This document shows positions 5,824 to 17,339 of a DNA stretch of 64,000 nt, piece by piece. Source of the DNA: Planctomycetota bacterium. Lineage in GTDB: Bacteria > Planctomycetota > UBA1135 > GCA-002686595. Below the pieces are notes generated by a model, which was given only the letters and a program-made list of their open reading frames with translations, was not told the origin of the DNA and searched no databases. Position 1 is the first letter of the stretch. Every line of letters begins with the position of its first letter. The translations under genes and the position numbers were made by a program. The stretch is taken from NCBI GenBank assembly GCA_029259655.1, contig JAJDET010000366.1:1-64000 (forward strand). Reading direction: 5' to 3'.

Positions 5824-6474
5824 TCAGTCCGCGACCTTGATCCCGTTCTCGTAACGACCCGACCGCTCGGGGTCCGGACTGCCGTCGTCCTTCCAGGCCT
5901 GCCAGACCCCCACTCTCGGCGGGCCGTTCGCGGGGCCCTCGGCTTGCTTCTGGCCGTTGCGGAACCAGAGTGTCCTGTGGACGGCGACGTCGTCCTCGAA
6001 GACCTCCTCCCGCTTCTTGTTGCCGTTCTCGAACCAGGTGGTCGTCGTCCCGACCTGCGTCCCCAGGTCGAACTCGACGCTCACGCGCGGCTTGCCGTCC
6101 GGGTACCACTCCTCCCAGAGACCGTCCCGCTTCCCCTGGTCGAAGTGCCCGGTGCTGGCGTGCACGCCGCTGGCGAACCAGTGAGCCCAGAGACCGTGCG
6201 GCTGCCCGTACCGGTAGGACTGAATCGTCCGCACGTCGCCGTTCTCGAACCAGGTCGTCCACTCGGCGTGGCGCCGCCCCTCGCGGTAGACGCCGAGCGA
6301 TTTCCGATTGCCGTTCTCCCACCAGGTGGTCCAGGCGCCTTCCGGCACCTCGTCGCGGTAGCGGATCACGGACCAGAGCTGATCGCCCCCGGCGTAGTGA
6401 ATCCGTCGGACCTCGTCTCCGCAGCCGGCGAGCAAGAAGGCGGGCAGGAGGGCGAAGAGGAGAATGCGGCGCAT
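5824..6474 (-). CDS. lipoprotein with MORN-variant (YwqK-type) repeats
   Basis: A 216-residue product with a lipoprotein signal (LLPAFLLAGC, lipid Cys about residue 18) followed by about seven tandem repeats of the form GxWxxWxENGxxxxxxxYxxGxxx (WTTWWENGN, WTTWFENGD, WAHWFASG, WEEWYPDG, TTTWFENGN, TLWFRNGQ, WQAWKDDG). These are the MORN_2/YwqK-like repeats; members are often called toxin-antitoxin YwqK antitoxins, but no toxin partner is seen here. The ATG overlaps the stop of the upstream sulfatase gene (TGATG), which indicates translational coupling. A periplasmic scaffold or binding role is inferred; nothing catalytic is visible. Confidence 0.88.
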   Translation of the reverse strand: MRRILLFALLPAFLLAGCGDEVRRIHYAGGDQLWSVIRYRDEVPEGAWTTWWENGNRKSLGVYREGRRHAEWTTWFENGDVRTIQSYRYGQPHGLWAHWFASGVHASTGHFDQGKRDGLWEEWYPDGKPRVSVEFDLGTQVGTTTTWFENGNKKREEVFEDDVAVHRTLWFRNGQKQAEGPANGPPRVGVWQAWKDDGSPDPERSGRYENGIKVAD

Positions 6475-7835
6475 CACTCCTCCTCCTCGTCGTCGTCGCC
6501 GAGGTACCCCAGGTCCTTCATCTGGTCGAGCTGCGTCGGCGTGAGCTCGAGCTCTCCCGAGTGCTCGTAGAGCCGACTGCGTTCCTGAGCCTTCGCGATC
6601 ACGCCCCGGAGCTCCTGCTTGAGATCCGCTACCACCTCCGGAAACTCGTCCGCGACGTCCCTCGACTCGGCGGGATCGCTCCCGAGGTCGTAGAGCTCCA
6701 CGTCACCCTCGATCGAGTCGACGATCAGCTTCCACCGTCCGCGCAGGATGCAGTCGAGCGAGTTCTGCTCCGAGAGGCGGGTCTCCGCCACGGCGGAGCG
6801 CTCCGCTCCGGGTCGACCCTCGAGGAGCGGTCCCAGGCTCATGCCCTCGATGTCGGCGGGAGAGACGAGGGGCGGGACGCGTTCGAGGATGGTCGGGAAG
6901 ACGTCCACCATGCTCACCAGGTCGTCCACACGCCGCGGTTCGACGCCGGGCACACGCACGACGAGCGGCACGCGGACGAGCTCGCCGTAGAGACTGTGGC
7001 CGTGGCGCAGCGCTCCGTGGTCGAGGAACTCCTCGCCGTGGTCGGAGAAGAAGACGACGATCGTGTCCTCGGCCAGCCCGAGCCGTTCGAGCGAGTCGAG
7101 CACGCGGCCGATGTGGCGATCCGTGAAGGTGATCTCGCCGTCGTAGAGATCGAGCTCCGTGAAGGTGATCTCGCCGTCGAGCTCGGTCGTCCCGAACTGC
7201 TCCGAGATGCCCGCGTGGGGCATGTAGGCTTCGTGGGGATCGAAGTAGTGCAGCCACATGAGCCAGGGAACGCCGTCGGCGGCGGCCGCCTTCTGCTCGA
7301 GGAAACGAATCCCGCGCTCGGAGACGATCTCCGAGGTGACCGTCCTCCTCTGGTCCGCGACGGTGTGGCTGAAGTCGCCGTCGAAGTGGATGAAGCCCTG
7401 CTGCAGGCCATAACGCCGGACCAGGAAGACATGGCTCGTCACCGCCATCGTGTCGTAGCCGGCGTCCCGCAGGATCTCGGGGAACGTCAGGAACGAGGAG
7501 TCCAGGCGTGAGTTGAAGGTCCAGCAACCGTGCGTCGACGTGTAGTAGGAGGTCAACACCGACGCGAGACCGGGCAGGGTCCAGGACGAAGAAGCCTGCG
7601 CGTTGTCGAAGACCACTGCCCCGCGGGCCCAGCGATCGAGATTCGGCGTCGTCGGGCGCTCGTACCCGTAGATGCCCATGTGGTCCGCACGCAGCGTGTC
7701 CACGCTGACGAGCAGGACGTTGGGCGGCGAGCCCTCGTAGCGGGGCCGGAACTCCCGATCGCGCCGCACGAACCAGGTCGCCAGCGCCAGGGCCGTGATC
7801 GCGACGATCAGGCCGATGAGGTTCCTGCCCACCAT
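6474..7835 (-). CDS. membrane-anchored sulfatase-like hydrolase (alkaline phosphatase superfamily)
   Basis: A 453-residue protein with one N-terminal membrane helix (about 5-23) and a sulfatase-fold domain outside the membrane. Metal-site residues are recognisable: VSVDTLRADH (Asp46, Asp51) near the N-terminus and FFSDHGEEF further on. At the nucleophile position the sequence is SSWTLPGLASVL, so Thr86 replaces the Cys/Ser of C/S-x-P-S-R sulfatases and no formylglycine can form. It may therefore be a phosphodiesterase, a phosphotransferase or an atypical sulfatase. A 12-codon block encoding DGEITFTELDLY is partly duplicated (see findings). The C-terminus ends in an acidic tail (DDDEEEE). It lies 87 bp downstream of the sigma-factor fusion and overlaps the lipoprotein gene. 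Confidence 0.9.
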   Translation of the reverse strand: MVGRNLIGLIVAITALALATWFVRRDREFRPRYEGSPPNVLLVSVDTLRADHMGIYGYERPTTPNLDRWARGAVVFDNAQASSSWTLPGLASVLTSYYTSTHGCWTFNSRLDSSFLTFPEILRDAGYDTMAVTSHVFLVRRYGLQQGFIHFDGDFSHTVADQRRTVTSEIVSERGIRFLEQKAAAADGVPWLMWLHYFDPHEAYMPHAGISEQFGTTELDGEITFTELDLYDGEITFTDRHIGRVLDSLERLGLAEDTIVVFFSDHGEEFLDHGALRHGHSLYGELVRVPLVVRVPGVEPRRVDDLVSMVDVFPTILERVPPLVSPADIEGMSLGPLLEGRPGAERSAVAETRLSEQNSLDCILRGRWKLIVDSIEGDVELYDLGSDPAESRDVADEFPEVVADLKQELRGVIAKAQERSRLYEHSGELELTPTQLDQMKDLGYLGDDDEEEE

Positions 7836-7922: not shown

Positions 7923-10436
7923 TCAGGGGCGGATTCGGGTCACCTCTCCGGCACGCAGGGACACTGGCAGGCGCAGCACCTGCTCTTCGCCGGAGAGGAG
8001 GACGAGCGTGCGCGCCGTCTCCGACACCGAATAGACGTCGGAGCGCCCCTTCTCGAAGTGCCCCGCCTCCGAGGTGAAGTTGACGTCGCCGTGACTCCTC
8101 CGGAGAACGAGCGTGAGGCCGGCGGCGTCCTCGATGCGGAACGAGTCGGCGACACCGGCCTCCGTGAGCTCGACCGAGAAGTGGAGGTTGGCGGCGAGCA
8201 CGATCTCGAGCTCGTCGCCGTTCTCGACGTCGTCGAGGGAGCGGTGAACGAATCCGACACCGGCTCCGCCCCAGACCTGGAGCTCGACACCCTCGGTCGC
8301 GAGCGCGTCGAACACGAAGCGCCCGTCCGGGCCGGTGATCGCCTGCGTTCGCGCGAAGGCGTACAGGCTCTCGCCCGGCCCGTCGTCGTCCGCCGGAGTC
8401 TCGAGCTTCCTGATCGGCGAGATCGTGACGCCCTCGACGGGATCGCCGTTCGGTCGCACCACGCGGCCGGATAGAGCCACGCGCGTCGCTCCGGGGAGGA
8501 CGATCTCGACGCCTTCGGTCCCCGCCTGGACCGGTCCCATCCGCGCCGCACGGAGCGCCGGTCCGACGGCCCACAGGTCGTAGCTCCTGTCGAGCAGCCC
8601 CTCGATCTCGAAGCGCCCTTCGGCATCCGTCCGCCCCGACTCTTCGGACGCCGCCAGGAGCTCCTCGACGTAGCCGGCGTGCGCGTACGAGACGTCCGAC
8701 CTCTCCTCCATCAGCCACCCGAAGACGGAGCGGTCGACGAGGCGCACGTCGACGTCCGGGACCGGGAGACCGTCGGAGTCGACGACGCGGCCTCGAAGGG
8801 CGAGCGGCGTCCCGTCGAGCGCGAGGAGACAGAACGCCGGCCAGCCGGTTTCCGGGTGGAGCACGGTGTCGCGCGCCAGCCTCGCGGGGAGAAAGCCCGG
8901 AGCCAGCGCTCGCAGCTCCGTGTCCTCGATCGGCACGCCGTTGAACCACAGGTCGAGCTGGAAGCCGCCGTCCCGATCGGTCTGGGTGCTGACGTGGCCG
9001 ATCGCCACCCACGCGCCCTCCACCGGACGACCGCGCGGATCGACGACGCGCCCCAGCAGGAACTCCGAGCCGGCCTGAGCGGTGGTGAGCACGACGCGCA
9101 GTCCGACCGCCGGACGCCCGTCGAGCTCCACGGTGGCGTCCTCGAAGCCGGTCCTCTGCACGCGCAGGTGCGCGCGCTCGAGACAGGGGGCTCGTCCGAT
9201 TGAGAATATCCCGACCGGGTCGCTCTCCACCACCCACTCCGCGAAGGACGACCGGTCGAGCGGGATCCCGAAGTCGCTCTTCACGCGACTCGCGATCACC
9301 AACCGGACCTCGGCCTCGACCACCGGATCGCCGTTCTCGTCCACGATCTCGCCCGCGAGCTCGCACGACTCCGCGACCACGACGACGACGGACTCGCGCG
9401 GAGCGTTCCCGAGCACGACCCCCTCGAGGAGCGTGACGTAGGTCTCGCTCGCGGCGACGACACGCCCTCCGCGCGCGAGCGGGGGGAACAGGGCCTCGCC
9501 GGTCGCGTCCGTCACGACGCGCGCGATTTCCGCCGTCCCCGACAGGAGCACGAGGTCGAGACCGGGGACGGGCCGTCCAGCGGCGTCGACGGCGATCGCG
9601 AAGAGGTCGCGCTCGAGTGCGACGAACGCCGTCGGTGCCGCGTCCGGTCCGGGCTCCGGCTCCGGCGCAGCGGTACGGGCAACCTCGCTGCGCGCGGCAG
9701 CGAGGGGCGGCGCGAGCTCGGGGGACGCGGCCTCGACCGCGTGGACCTCACGCGACTCCGCGGCCGGGAGAGACTCGGTCTCCGACCCCAGTGCCCACCA
9801 CCCTCCGATGAGGAGCGTTCCGGCGACGGAGCCGGCGACGAGTGCGACCTTGCTGCTCACGATCAGGCCTCCTGTGCTCAGGCCGGCGGCCGCGGGCCGC
9901 TCGGCGACGAGGGGAAGGAGTGCCGTGAGCCACGAACCGCCGCCGTCCTCGCGCGCGAGGCGCTCGCGCAGGAGCCGTCTCGCGCGCATGAGCCGCGTCT
10001 TGACGGTCGCCGTGGAGACGCCCAGATCGCGGGCGATCTGGACCGGCTGGCGATCGTCGAAGTAGCGCAGGAGGACGGTGGTCCGATAGGGCTCGTCGAG
10101 CTCCATGACGGTCTCGACGACGCGCTTCTGGACCGCGGCTCGCTCGAGCACGTCGCCCGCCCCGCTCTCGGGGACGCGCTCGCCGTGCGCGAGACTCTCG
10201 CGATCCTCTCGGCGCGCTCCCCCTCGCCGCTCCTGGCGTACGAGGTTCTTCAACACCGTCGCCAGCCAGCGGCGGATCGACGAACCCTCGGGCGGCGGCG
10301 TCCTGTGGACGGCCAGCCACGCTTCCTGCGTCAGGTCCTCGGCCAGGTGAGCGTCGCGGGCGAGGCTCGTCGCGAGGCCGCGAACCCAGTCGAGCTCGCG
10401 CAGGAGGAGAGGGGAGAGGGGAGTGGGCTCCGGCAT
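7923..10436 (-). CDS. ECF sigma factor fused to a membrane anchor and carboxypeptidase-regulatory-like repeats
   Basis: A single 837-residue open frame. Residues 1-165 form an ECF sigma factor: region 2 (AEDLTQEAWLAVHR, IRRWLATVLKNLVRQERR) and region 4 with its HTH (LDEPYRTTVLLRYFDD, IARDLGVSTATVKTRLMRAR). A hydrophobic helix follows at about 188-214 (IVSSKVALVAGSVAGTLLIGG). The remaining 620 residues carry at least five beta-sandwich carboxypeptidase-D-regulatory/CnaB-like units, each marked by a G-x-V-V-D-x-x-G-x-P-V pattern (GRVVDPRGRPVEGA, GRVVDSDGLPVPDV, GRVVRPNGDPVEGV, GEIVDENGDPVVEA, AIAVDAAGRPVPGL). With the sigma part inside, the repeats would be extracytoplasmic, making a membrane-tethered sigma factor with a built-in sensor. 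The ATG at 10436 is the start that precedes the sigma homology. No separate anti-sigma gene is adjacent. Confidence 0.9.
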   Translation of the reverse strand: MPEPTPLSPLLLRELDWVRGLATSLARDAHLAEDLTQEAWLAVHRTPPPEGSSIRRWLATVLKNLVRQERRGGARREDRESLAHGERVPESGAGDVLERAAVQKRVVETVMELDEPYRTTVLLRYFDDRQPVQIARDLGVSTATVKTRLMRARRLLRERLAREDGGGSWLTALLPLVAERPAAAGLSTGGLIVSSKVALVAGSVAGTLLIGGWWALGSETESLPAAESREVHAVEAASPELAPPLAAARSEVARTAAPEPEPGPDAAPTAFVALERDLFAIAVDAAGRPVPGLDLVLLSGTAEIARVVTDATGEALFPPLARGGRVVAASETYVTLLEGVVLGNAPRESVVVVVAESCELAGEIVDENGDPVVEAEVRLVIASRVKSDFGIPLDRSSFAEWVVESDPVGIFSIGRAPCLERAHLRVQRTGFEDATVELDGRPAVGLRVVLTTAQAGSEFLLGRVVDPRGRPVEGAWVAIGHVSTQTDRDGGFQLDLWFNGVPIEDTELRALAPGFLPARLARDTVLHPETGWPAFCLLALDGTPLALRGRVVDSDGLPVPDVDVRLVDRSVFGWLMEERSDVSYAHAGYVEELLAASEESGRTDAEGRFEIEGLLDRSYDLWAVGPALRAARMGPVQAGTEGVEIVLPGATRVALSGRVVRPNGDPVEGVTISPIRKLETPADDDGPGESLYAFARTQAITGPDGRFVFDALATEGVELQVWGGAGVGFVHRSLDDVENGDELEIVLAANLHFSVELTEAGVADSFRIEDAAGLTLVLRRSHGDVNFTSEAGHFEKGRSDVYSVSETARTLVLLSGEEQVLRLPVSLRAGEVTRIRP

Positions 10437-10500: not shown

Positions 10501-12126
10501 TCAGGGAGCGTCGACCGCACCGGCCTCGACGCCGCCCGTGCGGATCCGCCCCGCGAGATCGTCGAAGACCTCGTGCGCAGGAGCCCCCGAGCCGAGCAAC
10601 ACGCTCGCGATCGACGGCGTCGCGTCGTGGGCGACACCGTTCCAGGAGACGGACAGGAAGTCGCCCAGCCCCGTACCGGCCAAGTAGCCGGAGGCCCCCG
10701 TACCGCTCACCGAGCCGAAGGCGACGTTGCCGGAGACCGTGACGCCGCCCGAGCCCCCCGAGAAGAGGATCGCGTTGCTGTTCAGGCTGTAGCACGCGTT
10801 GTTCGCGAACGTCATCCCCGGCTTTCCATTCCAGTCGTTGAGCAGCGCAGCGCGGCCGGTGTTGACGAACGTGTTGTTGACCACGATCAGGTCGGTGACC
10901 GTGCCCTGGTGGTCACCGCTGTAGAAGGCGTTCAGGCCGTCGATCAGGACATTGTTCCGCACGATGGCCTCGCCCTGAACCTGCATCACGTTGTCGCCGG
11001 CGTTCCAGCAGACGTTGCGCTCGATGAGGTTCACGGGCATTCCGCCGGTCCCGTAGACCAGGATGCTCGGGTAGTTGGTGTCGTGGACGGTGTTCTCGGC
11101 GATCCAGCAGCCCCACGAGCCCTGCTTGACCTCGATCCCGTCTCCCTGCGAGCCGCCGCAGTCGTAGACGTGGTTCAGCGCGATCACGACGTTGTTAGCG
11201 ATCGGGCTCGCGAAGTTCCCGCCGATGTAGAACCCCTCGCCGGTGCCGCCCGTCGAGTGAACCTGGTTGCGCGTGAAGTACAGGAACGACGTCGGGACCG
11301 AGTTCGCGGCGATCGCGTTGTCGTTCATGTCGTGCACGTGGCACTGGTCTATCCAGACGTTCTGGCAGTCGTGCAGGCGGAGTCCGATGCTCCCGCCCGT
11401 GATCTCGATCCCGCGCATGACGACGTAGCGGCAGGCACCGCCCTGTCCCATGTTCACCGTGTTCTGGCTCGCGTTCGAGCGCGTGATCACCGGCGTCGCC
11501 CCCGGCGCCGCCACGATCCAGATCGGGTTTCCCGCCGTGCCGACCAGGCTGATGTCGAGCAGCGAGTCGATCGTGTACGTCCCGCTCCCGATCCGAAGCT
11601 CGTCGCCCGGTGACAGGGACTGGATCACGGTCTCGAGCGCCGCGCCGTTCTGGGCGGAGGTCTGGCCGAAATCGTAGTTGAACGGAATCGTCGTCAGAGG
11701 TCGTGCGGCGGACCACGGCGGGAAGTACTGCTCCGGACTGCCCGGCGCCACCGCGAGCGTCTCCTCGACCGACGGCAACCCCTCGCCGCCCGTACCGACG
11801 CTCGTCACGACGCAGTACAGATCTCCGCCGACCCCCGTCACCTGGTAGGGCGGCGCGGCGACCTGCACGAAGGGCTTCCCCGTCGGGTCGATGGCGGGCG
11901 TCTCGGCCCAGTACACGCGATAGGCCGTCGCGTCGACGACCGTCGGCCAATCGACGAGAACGTTGCCGTTCGCCGTCGTCAGCGCGAGCGACGTCGGCGC
12001 GGCAGGTCCGGCCGGCGACGGGCTCCCGGCCACAGCACCTCCCCCACCGCCCCCGCCGCCGCAGCCGGCGCAGCCGGCGAGTGCGATTCCAACGACGAGA
12101 CAACCGACGCGTGCGCGCTCGAGCAT
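10501..12126 (-). CDS. right-handed parallel beta-helix lipoprotein
   Basis: A 541-residue exported protein with a lipobox (ALAGC, followed by a second Cys and a Gly run), a fibronectin-III-like segment (about 45-140, with DWPTVVDATAYRVYW) and a beta-helix of about 22-residue turns rich in Asn, Gly and Val (for example NVVIALNHVYDC, WIAENTVHD, IVRNNVLIDG, LIVVNNTFVNTG, VTVSGNVAFG). This is the pectate-lyase/PbH1 fold used by polysaccharide lyases and cell-surface adhesins; no lyase catalytic set could be identified. The ATG at 12126 has GGAAAGGGAAG upstream; longer in-frame extensions lack a signal peptide. It is 64 bp upstream of the sigma-factor fusion on the same strand, so they may share a transcript. 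Confidence 0.87.
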   Translation of the reverse strand: MLERARVGCLVVGIALAGCAGCGGGGGGGGAVAGSPSPAGPAAPTSLALTTANGNVLVDWPTVVDATAYRVYWAETPAIDPTGKPFVQVAAPPYQVTGVGGDLYCVVTSVGTGGEGLPSVEETLAVAPGSPEQYFPPWSAARPLTTIPFNYDFGQTSAQNGAALETVIQSLSPGDELRIGSGTYTIDSLLDISLVGTAGNPIWIVAAPGATPVITRSNASQNTVNMGQGGACRYVVMRGIEITGGSIGLRLHDCQNVWIDQCHVHDMNDNAIAANSVPTSFLYFTRNQVHSTGGTGEGFYIGGNFASPIANNVVIALNHVYDCGGSQGDGIEVKQGSWGCWIAENTVHDTNYPSILVYGTGGMPVNLIERNVCWNAGDNVMQVQGEAIVRNNVLIDGLNAFYSGDHQGTVTDLIVVNNTFVNTGRAALLNDWNGKPGMTFANNACYSLNSNAILFSGGSGGVTVSGNVAFGSVSGTGASGYLAGTGLGDFLSVSWNGVAHDATPSIASVLLGSGAPAHEVFDDLAGRIRTGGVEAGAVDAP

Positions 12127-12281
12127 GCTTCCCTTTCCGCTTCCCGACTCCCGGAGACCGGAGCTGGATCGACGGTCGGCGACGGCTGAATTGAGCGGAG
12201 CGTGTAACGACTGAGCACGAACACGGGTTGACCCCTCACGAGGGAGAGCGGACGATCGTCGGGCGGAAAGCAATTCCGACC

Positions 12282-13457
12282 GTGGAATACGATCTCGTCG
12301 TCGTCGGAGCGGGGCCCGGAGGCTCGAACGCCGCGGCGGCAGCGCTCGCCGGCGGGCTCGAGGTCGCCCAGGTCGACCGCGCGCGGTTCCCGCGCATCAA
12401 GCCCTGCGCCGGCGGGCTCACGATCAAGGCCTGCGAGTCGCTCGCGCTCCCGCTCGAGCCCTCCCTGCGGTCGACCTTCCGCGCCTTCGAGTTCAACGCT
12501 TGGCGCGGGACGGAGCGTCGCTTCGGCTACCGGAGCCCGATCCTGAAGATGGTCCTGCGGCCGGAGTTCGACAACCACCTGGTCGAGCGCAACCGGACGT
12601 CGGATCGCTTCCGGTTCTTCGACGGCGAGCCCGTCGTCGCGATAGATCGCGATTCCGACCGCTTCGTCGTGCGCACGCCCGAGCGCGAGCTCGTCGCGCG
12701 GCAGCTCGTCGGCGCCGACGGCGCGAACGGCACGACCAACCGCCTGTTCCGGATCGCCTCGCCCAGGCGACGGGCTGTCGCCGTCGAGATCAACCTCTAT
12801 CGCGACCGCGCCCGGATCGAGCCGGAGCCCGTCCCCTGCTTCGACTTCGGCTTCCTCCCGCTCGGGTACGGCTGGATCTTCCCGAAGGACGACCACTGGT
12901 CGGTCGGCCTGTACGCCCTGTCGGCGAGCGGCGTCGATCTCCGCGCTCGGCTCGCGGAGTACGTCGAGGCCCGCGGCTTCGACGTCGACGGCGATCCGCT
13001 CGACACGTTCGAGGCCCACACGATCCCGCTCGGCGGCCACCGCCTCGCCGTCCCCGACGAGCCGGTCTACGTCGTGGGCGACGCCGGCGGCTTCGCGGAC
13101 GCGCTCACCGGCGAGGGCATCTTTCACGCGCTCGAGAGCGGCAGGCTCGCGGGCGAGACGGCCATCCGGGTCGCGCGGGGCGAGGCGAAGCCGCGGGCCT
13201 ACTACCGCAGTCTCTGGCGGCGAGTCCTGCCCGACACCTTCCTCACGCACCACCTGGCCGACCGCTTCTATCGCGATCCGGCGCGCAGCCTCGCGTGGCT
13301 CGCGAAGCCGGTGCTCTGGCGACCGATCGTTCACGGCTACGGTCGCGGAGCGACGGTCGTGGAGTCGCTCGTCCGCGGCCCGCTCTACTGGGCGACCTCG
13401 CTGATGCGGCGGACGACGTCGATCGTCGCGCGCACGCGGCCGACGAGGTCGGCGTAG
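12282..13457 (+). CDS. geranylgeranyl reductase-like FAD-dependent oxidoreductase
   Basis: About 391 residues. The N-terminus is a dinucleotide-binding fold (EYDLVVVGAGPGGSNAAAA) and the C-terminal FAD motif reads VYVVGDAGGFADALTGEGI, the hallmark of the geranylgeranyl/digeranylgeranylglycerophospholipid reductase (GGR) group, as is KPCAGGLT near residue 42. These enzymes reduce isoprenoid double bonds in lipids, quinones or chlorophyll side chains; the substrate here is unknown. The GTG at 12282 places the beta strand directly at the N-terminus and has a GGCGGAAAG about a dozen bases upstream; a TTG at 12228 would add 18 residues. The 3' end overlaps the 3' end of the convergent methyltransferase gene by 73 bp. 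Confidence 0.87.
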   Translation: MEYDLVVVGAGPGGSNAAAAALAGGLEVAQVDRARFPRIKPCAGGLTIKACESLALPLEPSLRSTFRAFEFNAWRGTERRFGYRSPILKMVLRPEFDNHLVERNRTSDRFRFFDGEPVVAIDRDSDRFVVRTPERELVARQLVGADGANGTTNRLFRIASPRRRAVAVEINLYRDRARIEPEPVPCFDFGFLPLGYGWIFPKDDHWSVGLYALSASGVDLRARLAEYVEARGFDVDGDPLDTFEAHTIPLGGHRLAVPDEPVYVVGDAGGFADALTGEGIFHALESGRLAGETAIRVARGEAKPRAYYRSLWRRVLPDTFLTHHLADRFYRDPARSLAWLAKPVLWRPIVHGYGRGATVVESLVRGPLYWATSLMRRTTSIVARTRPTRSA

Positions 13458-15616
13458 CTCGCGAGGTCGTCCGCGGTGAGCTCGCGGCCGGCGCGGTCCT
13501 TCTTCCACTTGCGCGCGGGCGCGTAGGCGCCGATCCGGAAATCCAGCACCTCGGGAGGGACGTCTGCCTGTCTCGCGACGGGAGTGTCTCCGAGGTGCAC
13601 GCCGAGCAACTCCCGCCCGAGTGCCGCGAACGCCCGGAACTGCCGCGCATCGCGCGGCGGCGGGATGCGCGGGAAGTCGACCGCGAGCTCGTCCTCGTGC
13701 TTCGCGCGATAGCCCGGTGCGTGGAGCACGGCGTAGACGTACGCGAGGAGGTCGGGCGCGGGTGTGTCCGCGTCGGGAACGATGCGCCGTGCCTGGTCGG
13801 CGTCCACGTTGGGCACGAGCGGACCGTCCCCTTCCCCCACGAGGAGTGGGAAGCAGTGCGATCGCTCGCGGCTCCGGTTCGAGATCAGGTTGTCGTCGAC
13901 GAGCCGGCGGGAGGCGAACACGTGCCGCCAGGGCGGCGCGGCGAGCTGGCGGCAGACGACGAGGGCGACGTTCTTGACACCGTCGAGGTGTCGCATGAGC
14001 CTCCGCCGATCGCAGAAGACGAGCGCGCGGTGGTAGAGGATGCGGCGCGTGTCGAAGGGTCGGTAGGCGTAGTCGCGCAGGCTGAGGTCGAGGTCCGGTG
14101 CCTCCCGGAACCGCTCTCGCGCGCGCTCGAGCTTCCAGCCGGCGTTGTCGCGAATGCGGAGCCGCGCGCGCAGGTCGTCCACGGACTCGTGCGGATCGAG
14201 GAGCAGCGCGGCCCGCTCGCGCAGCGGCGCGTCGTCGAAGTCGACGACGAGCCGGTCGTGCGCGGTGACGATCCCGGAGACGGAGCGCGGGAAGAGCTCG
14301 GCGAGACCGGGCCACGACGCGTACTCGGGAGACGCACGCCTGCGCGGCACGAAGAACCAGCTCGGCGAGGTCGGCCGGATCTCGTGCGTGGCGAGGTCCT
14401 GTGCGGTCCCGTCCGCGAGACGGTCGAGCTTCTCTCGCCGTGTCCCGGAGAGGCGACCGTGAGTCACGCAGCTCCGGACTCCGGGCACGCGCGAGCCGAG
14501 GACGACGGACGTCCCCTGGTCGATCCCGAACAGGCTCTCGTCGACGGCGGCGTCCTCGCGGCGGCGCAGGCGCGAGCCGGAGAGATCGAGGATCCAAAGG
14601 CGCGAGAAGGTCGCGCACAGGGACGCCCGCATCCCGCGCAGCGTACGCGCGTCGAGGTACCCGTTGCTGGTCACGAGCCCGACGACGCCCACTCCGGCCC
14701 GCTCGATCGCGAGCTCCGCCAGCCGGACGAACTTCACGTAGTCGTCCTGGAGGTGCATCTCGAGCCGCAGCGCGCCCTTCTCCACGACGCGCTCGCCTGC
14801 GGCGTGTTTGTAGGGCTCGACCAGCGCGCGCGCGGCCGGTTCGAGGTTCCCGGAGCGAATGGACCAGGGCGGGTTGCCGAGCACGACCGTCACGCCGGCG
14901 GGCCAGACCTCCGTCGATGTGAGCGGGTTCGCGCCGCGCAGATCGAAGGCGATGTCGGGCCCGTCGAGCTCCCGCATCACCCGTGCGAGGTTGGCGCGGG
15001 CCAGGGACCGCGGCGCGTCGAGCAGCTCGAAGCCGACCAGGCGCTCCGCGAGCTCCGTCGCCGCGAAGTCGCGCCAGTGCTCGCCGAGCGTCACCCGCAT
15101 CCGCCGCAGGACACTCGCCAGGAAGACACCGCTCCCGGTCGCCGGATCGACGATGCGCACGAACGCGCTGTCGGGATCGACGCCGCCGGGAATGTCGAAC
15201 CCGTGCCGCGCCGCGAGCTCCGCCCACGTCGTGCGGTCGGCCAGCCCGTCGGCGAGCCCGAGCTCCTCGCGGAGGGCGCGGTCCACGCCGGCGACGACGT
15301 GGTCGGCCAGCGGCGCCGGCGTCGTGTAGACGCCTCGCCGCGAGCGCCGTTCGATGTCGGCTGCCGCGATCAGGAGCTCGTGCGCCAGGAAGGCGGGCTC
15401 CGTCCCGGGGAAACGCTTCGCGAGATCGGTGCGGATCCGGTCGGGGTCCGCTCGCTCGAGCGCCGCCTCGAGCTCGGGCGAAGAGCAGGCTCGCTCACCC
15501 GGCGAGGTCAGCCACTCCGCGAGCGCAAGACAAGCGGCCTCGTCCGCCCCCCCCACTCGCGCGACCGCTCGTGCGAGCGCCAGCGCACTCCGGTGGGGCA
15601 GAGCTCGAGTCGGCAC
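13385..15616 (-). CDS. solitary N6-adenine DNA methyltransferase with C-terminal specificity domain (type ISP/IIG-like)
   Basis: A 743-residue protein. It has motif X (RRGVYTTPAPLADHVV, about 93-108), motif I (IVDPATGSGVFL, about 155-166) and the catalytic motif IV NPPW (in VVLGNPPWSIRSGN, near 250). The C-terminal half, with FFVPRR, RPFDTRRILYH and the LISNRSRERSHCFPL block, matches the target-recognition part of type ISP restriction-modification enzymes. No nuclease or helicase domain precedes it and no separate restriction gene is adjacent, so it may act as an orphan methylase or be a remnant of a larger system. A GTG at 15616 fits the start of recognisable sequence. It is the last gene of the ABC-transporter/EEP operon, 59 bp after the EEP stop. 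Confidence 0.85.
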   Translation of the reverse strand: MPTRALPHRSALALARAVARVGGADEAACLALAEWLTSPGERACSSPELEAALERADPDRIRTDLAKRFPGTEPAFLAHELLIAAADIERRSRRGVYTTPAPLADHVVAGVDRALREELGLADGLADRTTWAELAARHGFDIPGGVDPDSAFVRIVDPATGSGVFLASVLRRMRVTLGEHWRDFAATELAERLVGFELLDAPRSLARANLARVMRELDGPDIAFDLRGANPLTSTEVWPAGVTVVLGNPPWSIRSGNLEPAARALVEPYKHAAGERVVEKGALRLEMHLQDDYVKFVRLAELAIERAGVGVVGLVTSNGYLDARTLRGMRASLCATFSRLWILDLSGSRLRRREDAAVDESLFGIDQGTSVVLGSRVPGVRSCVTHGRLSGTRREKLDRLADGTAQDLATHEIRPTSPSWFFVPRRRASPEYASWPGLAELFPRSVSGIVTAHDRLVVDFDDAPLRERAALLLDPHESVDDLRARLRIRDNAGWKLERARERFREAPDLDLSLRDYAYRPFDTRRILYHRALVFCDRRRLMRHLDGVKNVALVVCRQLAAPPWRHVFASRRLVDDNLISNRSRERSHCFPLLVGEGDGPLVPNVDADQARRIVPDADTPAPDLLAYVYAVLHAPGYRAKHEDELAVDFPRIPPPRDARQFRAFAALGRELLGVHLGDTPVARQADVPPEVLDFRIGAYAPARKWKKDRAGRELTADDLASYADLVGRVRATIDVVRRISEVAQ

Positions 15617-15675
15617 ACGCCCATGGACGGCTCTCGAAGAGCGCGGGTCAAGCGCGCGGCCGGGTCTCGAGCCCG

Positions 15676-16503
15676 TCAGCGGCGGTAGATCAGGTCGGCG
15701 GCCACGGGGTGGTGGTCCATGTCGCCCAGGCGGCGGCCGTGGACGGGACCGGCGGAGAGGACCTCGAACGCGGTCGGGTCGACGAAGACGTAGTCGAGCC
15801 GTCGATCCGGCTCGGCCGTCGAGCCCGCGCCGCGCGCCGCGTCGAGCAGCCGGTCGGCGACGAAGTTGTAGGTCTCGACGTCGCGGTAGGCGTCGTCCGT
15901 GAAGAGGTCGCGGCGCTTGTCGAGGTCGAGGTCGATGTTGAGGTCGCCCAGGAGGAGGTAGCCCCCGACCTCCGGCACGATCAGGAGCGCCTCGAGCGCG
16001 GCTCCGATCTCGGCGTTGCGCTCTGCGGCCGAGGCCACGTCGGCATGGATGCCCAGTGCGGCGACGACGCGGCCGTCCCCGTGCTCGAACCGGACGATGA
16101 GCGCACCGGGCGGAAGCGAGCCGGAGGGTTCGATACGCCGCAGGTTCGGGAGTCGGGAGAGCGCGACGACCCGACGACCGCGTCCGCTCTTCGCGGTCTC
16201 GAGCTCCCAGCCGGCACCGAGGGCGCTCGCCAGGGCCGCGGTCTGCGGACCGAAGCGCACCTCCTGGAGGAAGACCAGGTCGGGCTCGAGCTCGACGAGC
16301 GTTCGCGCGACGTGCTCGACGTGGTCGTCGTCGAGGGAACGCCCCCAATCGCCTCCGGCCTGCCCGACGTTCCAGGTCACGACGCGCAGCGTGCCGGGCA
16401 CGCGTGGGCCGAGCTCGAACGGCGGAATCTCCGCCACGGGCAGCCCGAAGCCCGCGAGGAGGAGCAGTGCGGCCAGGAGATACAGCGCGAGCTCGGCTCT
16501 CAC
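15676..16503 (-). CDS. endonuclease/exonuclease/phosphatase (EEP) family protein
   Basis: A 275-residue protein with an N-terminal hydrophobic helix (ELALYLLAALLLLAGFGL) that would anchor or export it, then an EEP/DNase-I fold: TWNVGQAGG (metal-binding Asn), FLQEVRF (metal-binding Glu), GDLNIDLDLD (catalytic Asp/Asn) and the terminal DMDHHPVAADL (catalytic Asp-His). All catalytic signatures are intact. Substrates in the superfamily are nucleic acids, phospholipids or inositol phosphates; with an exported position a phosphodiesterase is likely. The GTG start overlaps the permease stop (GTGA), so it belongs to the ABC-transporter operon. Confidence 0.88.
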   Translation of the reverse strand: MRAELALYLLAALLLLAGFGLPVAEIPPFELGPRVPGTLRVVTWNVGQAGGDWGRSLDDDHVEHVARTLVELEPDLVFLQEVRFGPQTAALASALGAGWELETAKSGRGRRVVALSRLPNLRRIEPSGSLPPGALIVRFEHGDGRVVAALGIHADVASAAERNAEIGAALEALLIVPEVGGYLLLGDLNIDLDLDKRRDLFTDDAYRDVETYNFVADRLLDAARGAGSTAEPDRRLDYVFVDPTAFEVLSAGPVHGRRLGDMDHHPVAADLIYRR

Positions 16504-17339
16504 GAGGTCTCCTCCCGCTTCCGGAAGCGCCGCAGGGCGAGTCCGAGGAAGAGCGCCGTGAACCCGAGGCACTTGGCGGCGTCGCGGCCGATCGCGATCC
16601 AGTCGACCTCCTCGCGGAACAGCCCGCGCCAGTAGGCGAGGTGGCTCGTGAAGAGCCACGGGCGGAGCTCGCGGAAGAAGTGGATCTCCGCGACGACATA
16701 CAGGACGAGGTAGAGCGCGACGGCGGTCCCGACGGCGTTCACCGGCGAGCGCGAGAAGGCCGAGACGAGGAACGCCAGTGCGAGCGGCGTGAAGAGCGCG
16801 ATCGACGCGGCGGGCCAGGCCAGGAGGAAGCGCACCATCGCGGTGGACTGCGGGAGGTGCTGATGGTGGTCGGTCATCTGGAGCACCCCCGGATAGAGGT
16901 CCAGATCGCCCCACCCCACGGCCACGAGTCCCAGTCCGAGCGCCAGCGCGAGGAAGAGTCCGACGAGCAGCGAGATGAAGACGGCGGCGAGCGTCGCCTT
17001 GGCGAAGAACAGACGCACGCGCGACACCGGACGCGCCAGGACCAGCTTCAGGACGCCGCTCGCCGTGTCGCCGGCGAGCTGCGCCCCGCCCTCGGTCGCG
17101 GCGAAGATCGGCAGGATCAGGAGCGAGCCGAAGTAGAACGCGTAGAGCGCGAAGGTCAGCCCGTTGAAGTACGAGCTGTTCTCGAACGTGTAACGGAACT
17201 CGGCGTCGCCGCGCGTCTCGCTCTGGGCATAGGTGTAGAAACCGACCAGCATCAGGGCGAGGAAGAGCGCGAGGGAGCCCGCGGCGACCAGCGGACGGCG
17301 CGAGCGCAGGAGCCGCAGGGCCTCGAGCCGGACGATCAC
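16500..17339 (-). CDS. ABC transporter permease (ABC-2 type)
   Basis: A 279-residue permease with six predicted helices: one near residue 20-40, then a large loop (QSETRGDAEFRYTFENSSYF), and further helices at about 65-85, 110-145, 180-205, 210-230 and 255-270. The GDTASGVLKLVLARPVSR stretch is typical of ABC-2/NosY-like permeases. The GTG start overlaps the stop of the ATPase gene (GTGA), and its own stop overlaps the next gene, so all three are translationally coupled. Together with the ATPase it forms a simple exporter; the substrate is unknown. Confidence 0.9.
   Translation of the reverse strand: MIVRLEALRLLRSRRPLVAAGSLALFLALMLVGFYTYAQSETRGDAEFRYTFENSSYFNGLTFALYAFYFGSLLILPIFAATEGGAQLAGDTASGVLKLVLARPVSRVRLFFAKATLAAVFISLLVGLFLALALGLGLVAVGWGDLDLYPGVLQMTDHHQHLPQSTAMVRFLLAWPAASIALFTPLALAFLVSAFSRSPVNAVGTAVALYLVLYVVAEIHFFRELRPWLFTSHLAYWRGLFREEVDWIAIGRDAAKCLGFTALFLGLALRRFRKREETS

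Follow-up and report, generated by a model that had tools for sequence, protein, structure and literature searches.

A family of predicted membrane-tethered ECF sigma factors with beta-sandwich outer arms in Planctomycetota

Introduction

How could a signal from outside the cell reach a promoter if the sigma factor and its putative sensor were parts of the same polypeptide? The question is raised by one gene, P0001, in a 64,000-nucleotide stretch of DNA from a Planctomycetota bacterium (the window), which joins an ECF sigma factor to a predicted membrane segment and an array of beta-sandwich units. Planctomycetes have many ECF sigma factors without a recognisable partner. C-terminally extended ECFs are already known, including WD40-extended planctomycete ones (PMC8567305, PMC11032199). 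Here we describe the architecture of P0001, the family to which it belongs and the ways in which such a protein might work.

Results

An earlier note on this DNA had read P0001 as a single open frame that carries a sigma factor, a helix and at least five CarboxypepD_reg units, and this reading held: 837 codons run uninterrupted from an ATG at 10436 to a stop codon at 7923-7925, with the Pfam domains in order (Table 1). The longest mechanical open reading frame begins at a GTG at 10637, which falls within the upstream gene. Pfam detected Sigma70_r2, Sigma70_r4_2 (r4_2) and five CarboxypepD_reg stretches (2.7e-32), and a Sigma70_r2 scan of the genome recovered the sigma-2 domain at the same place. 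Regions 2 and 4 are present, region 3 is absent and a 29-residue linker separates r2 from r4_2, an arrangement that fits an ECF (group IV) factor. P0001 scores 60.5 bits against the NCBIfam sigma70-ECF superfamily (cut-off 42.9), and among the matches listed for it no narrower NCBIfam family exceeds its own cut-off. By domain content, the N-terminal part is an ECF (group IV) sigma-70 factor, predicted to bind RNA polymerase and direct transcription. We also considered whether two genes had been joined by a frameshift or an error; this is ruled out because the layout recurs, in open frames, in 26 further genes of its genome and in dozens of genes from other genera.

Table 1. Coordinates of P0001, its parts, its neighbours and the sigma-linked beta-helix loci
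Feature	Position	Strand	Size or evidence
Whole gene P0001: fused ECF sigma, predicted membrane segment, beta-sandwich arm	7923..10436	minus	837 aa
Sigma-70 region 2, residues 13-75	10212..10400	minus	Pfam PF04542, 1.9e-10
Sigma-70 region 4, residues 105-156	9969..10124	minus	Pfam PF08281, 3.4e-11
Predicted cytoplasmic juxtamembrane stretch, residues 165-191	9864..9944	minus	conserved pattern W..ALLPL....G.LIV..K (also G.L(I/V)..K)
Predicted membrane-spanning segment, residues about 192-214	9795..9863	minus	hydrophobicity and charge across 34 proteins
Pro/Ala/Glu-rich linker, residues 215-272	9621..9794	minus	pLDDT <50; identity 17%, lowest of all segments
Beta-sandwich array, residues 273-837	7926..9620	minus	CarboxypepD_reg x5; all-beta model; Foldseek CnaB-like
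Upstream neighbour, right-handed beta-helix protein	10501..12273	minus	64 bp gap; Pfam PF13229, 3e-12
Downstream neighbour, sulfatase-family enzyme	6474..7835	minus	87 bp gap; Pfam PF00884, 8e-51
Sigma-linked beta-helix loci	contigs C352, C32, C245, C92 and C95, C174, C53		loci L129, L128, L125, L134

To place the protein in relation to the membrane, we measured hydrophobicity and charge in P0001 and its relatives. In P0001, the best hydrophobic 19-mer spans residues 192-210 with a mean Kyte-Doolittle value of 1.83; the 95% level of shuffled-sequence controls is 1.84 and about 5% of shuffles reach 1.83, so P0001 taken singly is moderately hydrophobic and the case for a membrane segment rests on the family. 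Across the 34 proteins compared, the 19-mer of highest hydrophobicity in the region always begins at residue 183-210. The mean net charge is +1.9 over the 25 residues before the segment and –2.1 over the 25 residues after it, and 32 of the 34 proteins follow the positive-inside rule for an N-in/C-out orientation. This constant position, together with the charge bias, makes the membrane segment convincing. All fused members of the genome have a hydrophobic segment 20-50 residues past the sigma part, and only about 27-35 residues lie between sigma-4 and the segment. The charge around the segment predicts a cytoplasmic sigma part, one membrane helix and an extracytoplasmic arm, as the earlier note had proposed both for the single helix that would hold the sigma factor at the membrane and for the placing of the beta-sandwiches. 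Within the juxtamembrane stretch, W169 and G189 are nearly invariant (alignment A1) and residues 168-177 form a helix in the AlphaFold2 model. Judged by its sequence, the stretch (W..ALLPL....G.L(I/V)..K) is short for a classical anti-sigma domain.

The AlphaFold2 model of P0001, built on a 33-sequence alignment (mean pLDDT 82.7), is confident and helical over residues 8-177 and confident and all-beta over residues 278-835 (mostly pLDDT >85). Residues 175-272 are of low confidence and unmodelled; the membrane segment falls within this region, with no helix modelled, and the linker (residues 215-272) is likely disordered according to the model. Foldseek matched the N-terminus to the Mycobacterium tuberculosis ECF sigma factors SigL and SigH, and the arm to CnaB-type pilin arrays and alpha-2-macroglobulin arrays. 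Because whole-chain TM-scores were low, we take these matches to indicate fold type and not orthology. CarboxypepD_reg units can serve merely as structural spacers, and our analysis of the P0001 arm identified no ligand-binding site.

P0001 is one of a family of about 27 in its own genome, larger than the single gene first noted. A search of the 6.4-Mb genome returned nearly 30 further places with a sigma part and an extension, and 27 genes, P0001 included, were confirmed to carry a sigma part, a hydrophobic segment and an extension of 394 to 1153 residues, lengths that are affected in some genes by contig ends. The genome has 90 Sigma70_r2 matches in all. A second fused sigma/beta-sandwich gene (L008, C297:101161-103716) lies on the same contig as P0001, outside the window and about 91 kb off. 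The domain combination, which the earlier note had described from this gene, was also found in other genomes: of 41 close genomes, counting its own, 29 have homologues at E<=1e-15; several genera exceed 20 matches, and those without any mostly have smaller genomes. Across an evenly drawn sample of the phylum Planctomycetota, 32 of 149 genomes have matches at E<=1e-20. Many of the phylum-sample matches cover the sigma part and the membrane segment but end early in the arm, so the outer parts vary across the phylum. The named records with matches belong to Planctomycetota; one of them, CP036434, is the cultured Saltatorellus ferox Poly30, with 46 places, and in Planctomycetes bacterium CA13 there was no matching place among the named records. 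When we scanned 40 members from the own genome and Poly30, Sigma70_r2 was present in 40/40, Sigma70_r4_2 in 39/40 and CarboxypepD_reg in 38/40.

In alignment A1, mean pairwise identity is 41% in sigma-2 and 47% in sigma-4, compared to 21% in the membrane segment and 26% in the arm, and it is lowest in the linker (Table 1). The sigma part is thus best conserved and the arm divergent, as would be expected if different inputs fed a single kind of output. The open frame and the sigma regions are kept across genera at about 30-40% identity. In all, 94 members were assembled. In a FastTree phylogeny of 75 members, the proteins of single genomes are scattered among those of other genomes, and P0001 groups with L016 (genome G018, another genus; support 97) and not with its own paralogues; many deep branches of this tree are long and unsure, and its sample is biased to P0001-like matches. 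We therefore rejected a recent local duplication in the own genome; the paralogues look old.

We also searched for anti-sigma partners. The genome has zf-HC2 domains in 10 places, and by coordinate comparison nine of these adjoin unfused sigma genes (contigs C42, C105, C344, C341 twice, C316, C50, C174 and C151). None adjoins any of the 27 fused genes in this genome-wide scan, which covered zf-HC2 only among the anti-sigma families. No anti-sigma gene directly flanks P0001, whose neighbours encode the beta-helix protein and the sulfatase, and zf-HC2 is found neither in P0001 by Pfam nor in the list of 25 Pfam families for the 40 members. The earlier suggestion that no separate anti-sigma is involved therefore stands as far as zf-HC2 near P0001 is concerned. 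At C42:1732-2493, a sigma-2 domain is closely followed by tandem zf-HC2 domains; both are in open frames of 488 aa, and this could be a further sigma/anti-sigma arrangement. The genome also encodes S2P-type (M50) and Prc-type (S41) proteases; because both are common, with 10 to 14 of the 14 control genomes encoding them, their presence supports release by cutting weakly. No site-1 protease or cleavage motif was identified in this analysis.

The fused genes differ in their surroundings. Directly downstream of the sulfatase is a gene for a small, lipoprotein-like MORN_2 repeat protein (5827-6477, minus strand), and the MORN_2 protein, the sulfatase and the sigma gene are possibly in one operon. 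Elsewhere in the window, positions 13388-16699 (minus strand) encode a single-polypeptide restriction-modification-like protein with Type_ISP_C and N6_Mtase domains. Because unrelated genes flank the remaining fused genes and the nearest homologues (L016/L145), no common ligand or target is readable from context. The genome also encodes 17 secreted-looking beta-helix proteins, a family of their own, whose genes are associated with sigma genes. Three are no more than 600 bp from a fused gene (0.086 expected, P 1e-4), and another three are beside other sigma genes, so that 6 of the 17 lie this close to one (against 0.29 expected, P 6e-7, a value that assumes uniform placement and ignores contig ends). 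The beta-helix neighbour of P0001 itself is outside this 17-member cluster.

Discussion

We propose that P0001 is a single-protein transmembrane signalling sigma factor, of which its genome has about 27, and we place modest confidence, a little above even, in the reading that the arm senses and that two-step proteolysis frees the sigma part. The proposal starts from features read in sequence: the domain order, the conserved segment, the topology signal, the lack of adjacent or fused zf-HC2 and the conservation across the family. From these we infer that tethering inhibits the sigma factor, that release is proteolytic and what kind of signal is received. The helix and the short conserved juxtamembrane stretch would keep the cytoplasmic ECF sigma at the membrane, so that it would not be free to act. 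The outer beta-sandwich array would receive a signal, which may be a ligand, surface contact or envelope strain; an outer protease would then cut first and an S2P-type intramembrane protease second, setting free the sigma part as an active fragment of about 20-23 kDa.

Release by cutting leads because the best precedent, IutY of Pseudomonas putida (ECF243, a sigma/anti-sigma fusion of 374 aa; PMC5411451, PMC8999054), shares the layout. In IutY, a direct tether links the sigma to a single membrane helix and a periplasmic regulatory domain, and Prc and then RseP release it (PMC5411451). Like P0001, IutY is one protein with a cytoplasmic ECF sigma, a short stretch, a single helix and an outer domain; in contrast to P0001, it has a CSS-type periplasmic anti-sigma domain and a partner outer-membrane receptor, IutA, and the outer part of the P0001 family is far larger (about 565-620 aa of CarboxypepD_reg-like units). 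FecR is absent from P0001 by Pfam and from the 25 families listed for the 40 members, and the flanks of P0001 hold the beta-helix and sulfatase genes and no TonB-dependent receptor gene. ECF52 (SCO4117 of Streptomyces coelicolor) has a sigma part, a membrane region, a Pro-rich stretch and an outer domain, and proteolytic release was proposed for it; it carries a zinc finger (pfam13490) as well as a carbohydrate-binding module, and reports of it come only from Actinobacteria (PMC5826349). P0001 shares the membrane region followed by a Pro-rich stretch and an outer domain; however, its family was found here in Planctomycetota, and shows neither a zinc finger (including one between the sigma part and the membrane segment) nor a carbohydrate-binding module in the Pfam listing. 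Gemmataceae ECFs with WD40 repeats (ECF57-type) have a C-terminal extension thought to mediate protein-protein contact (PMC8999054, PMC8567305, PMC11032199). These are likewise planctomycete ECFs with long C-terminal extensions and many paralogues, but the P0001 family has CarboxypepD_reg beta-sandwiches past a predicted membrane helix instead of WD40, which occurs neither in P0001 nor among the families listed for the 40 members. The SigI/RsgI systems of Clostridium thermocellum resemble the family in that several paralogous membrane sensors, with outer domains of diverse kinds, are wired to separate sigma outputs (PMC12203970), although there the sigma factor and the sensor are two proteins and RsgI is an anti-sigma.

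Other ways of working were weighed against this proposal. The arm could mainly be a rigid spacer or adhesin-like stalk whose last unit senses contact or strain; activation would still be proteolytic, but the signal would be mechanical or protein-protein and not a soluble ligand. The pilin and surface-protein stalks among the Foldseek neighbours, the near-constant length and recognisable C-terminal unit of the compared members and the secreted-looking beta-helix genes beside some fused genes all point that way, but the C-terminal unit is no better conserved than the remaining arm (24% vs 26% identity, alignment A1) and by a crude heuristic, signal-peptide-like products are no more frequent overall in the immediate neighbourhood (16/63 vs 47/188), and we regard this as unlikely. 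Slightly less likely still is that the sigma acts uncut, freed for RNA polymerase at the membrane by a conformational change or by clustering of arms. The conserved juxtamembrane motif W..ALLPL..G.LIV..K could pass on a conformational signal, and extended ECF41 and ECF42 are thought to be conformational and not cleaved (PMC8999054); however, the best-matched precedent, IutY, is cleaved (PMC5411451), and no dimerisation or HAMP-like family is among the Pfam families listed for the 40 members.

The sulfatase next to P0001 had suggested a surface glycan as ligand to the earlier note, and in favour of a glycan receptor tied in function to the adjoining sulfatase and beta-helix lipoprotein are the shared strand of the three genes and the short gaps between them. 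This idea lost ground: the 6.4-Mb genome has about 130 sulfatase-family domains, sulfatases within 600 bp of any of the 27 fused genes are barely above chance (3 vs 0.66 expected, nominal P 0.03) and the context is not conserved, since different genes flank the other paralogues and L016/L145. We consider it quite improbable. That the fusion is an artefact or degenerate and has no sigma function we hold to be extremely improbable, as the frame and the sigma regions are kept in 27 paralogues and across genera and the sigma is the best-conserved part.

The kind of protein is already known from IutY and ECF52; the large family itself is undescribed in the literature searched, and an earlier mention is possible. 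The earlier note had called the combination little studied, in agreement with our search pairing sigma factor with carboxypeptidase regulatory domain, in which we found no description of a sigma factor with a membrane helix and a carboxypeptidase-regulatory-like arm; the main ECF-classification and planctomycete-genome papers lay outside this literature.

If the proposal of a tethered, protease-released sigma is true, one polypeptide would wire outside signals to promoters by a very short sigma route used about 27 times per cell, and about 30% of the genome's sigma-2 domains would belong to the fused family. A bolder view, that one-protein sigma receptors are a principal signalling class in these planctomycetes, with about 27 parallel sensor-to-promoter lines in one cell acting on RNA polymerase without anti-sigma while anchored, seems to us unlikely. 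Saltatorellus ferox Poly30, with its complete genome, makes localisation, cleavage and regulons directly testable. The layout points to a large, little-studied one-piece route from outside signal to gene expression.
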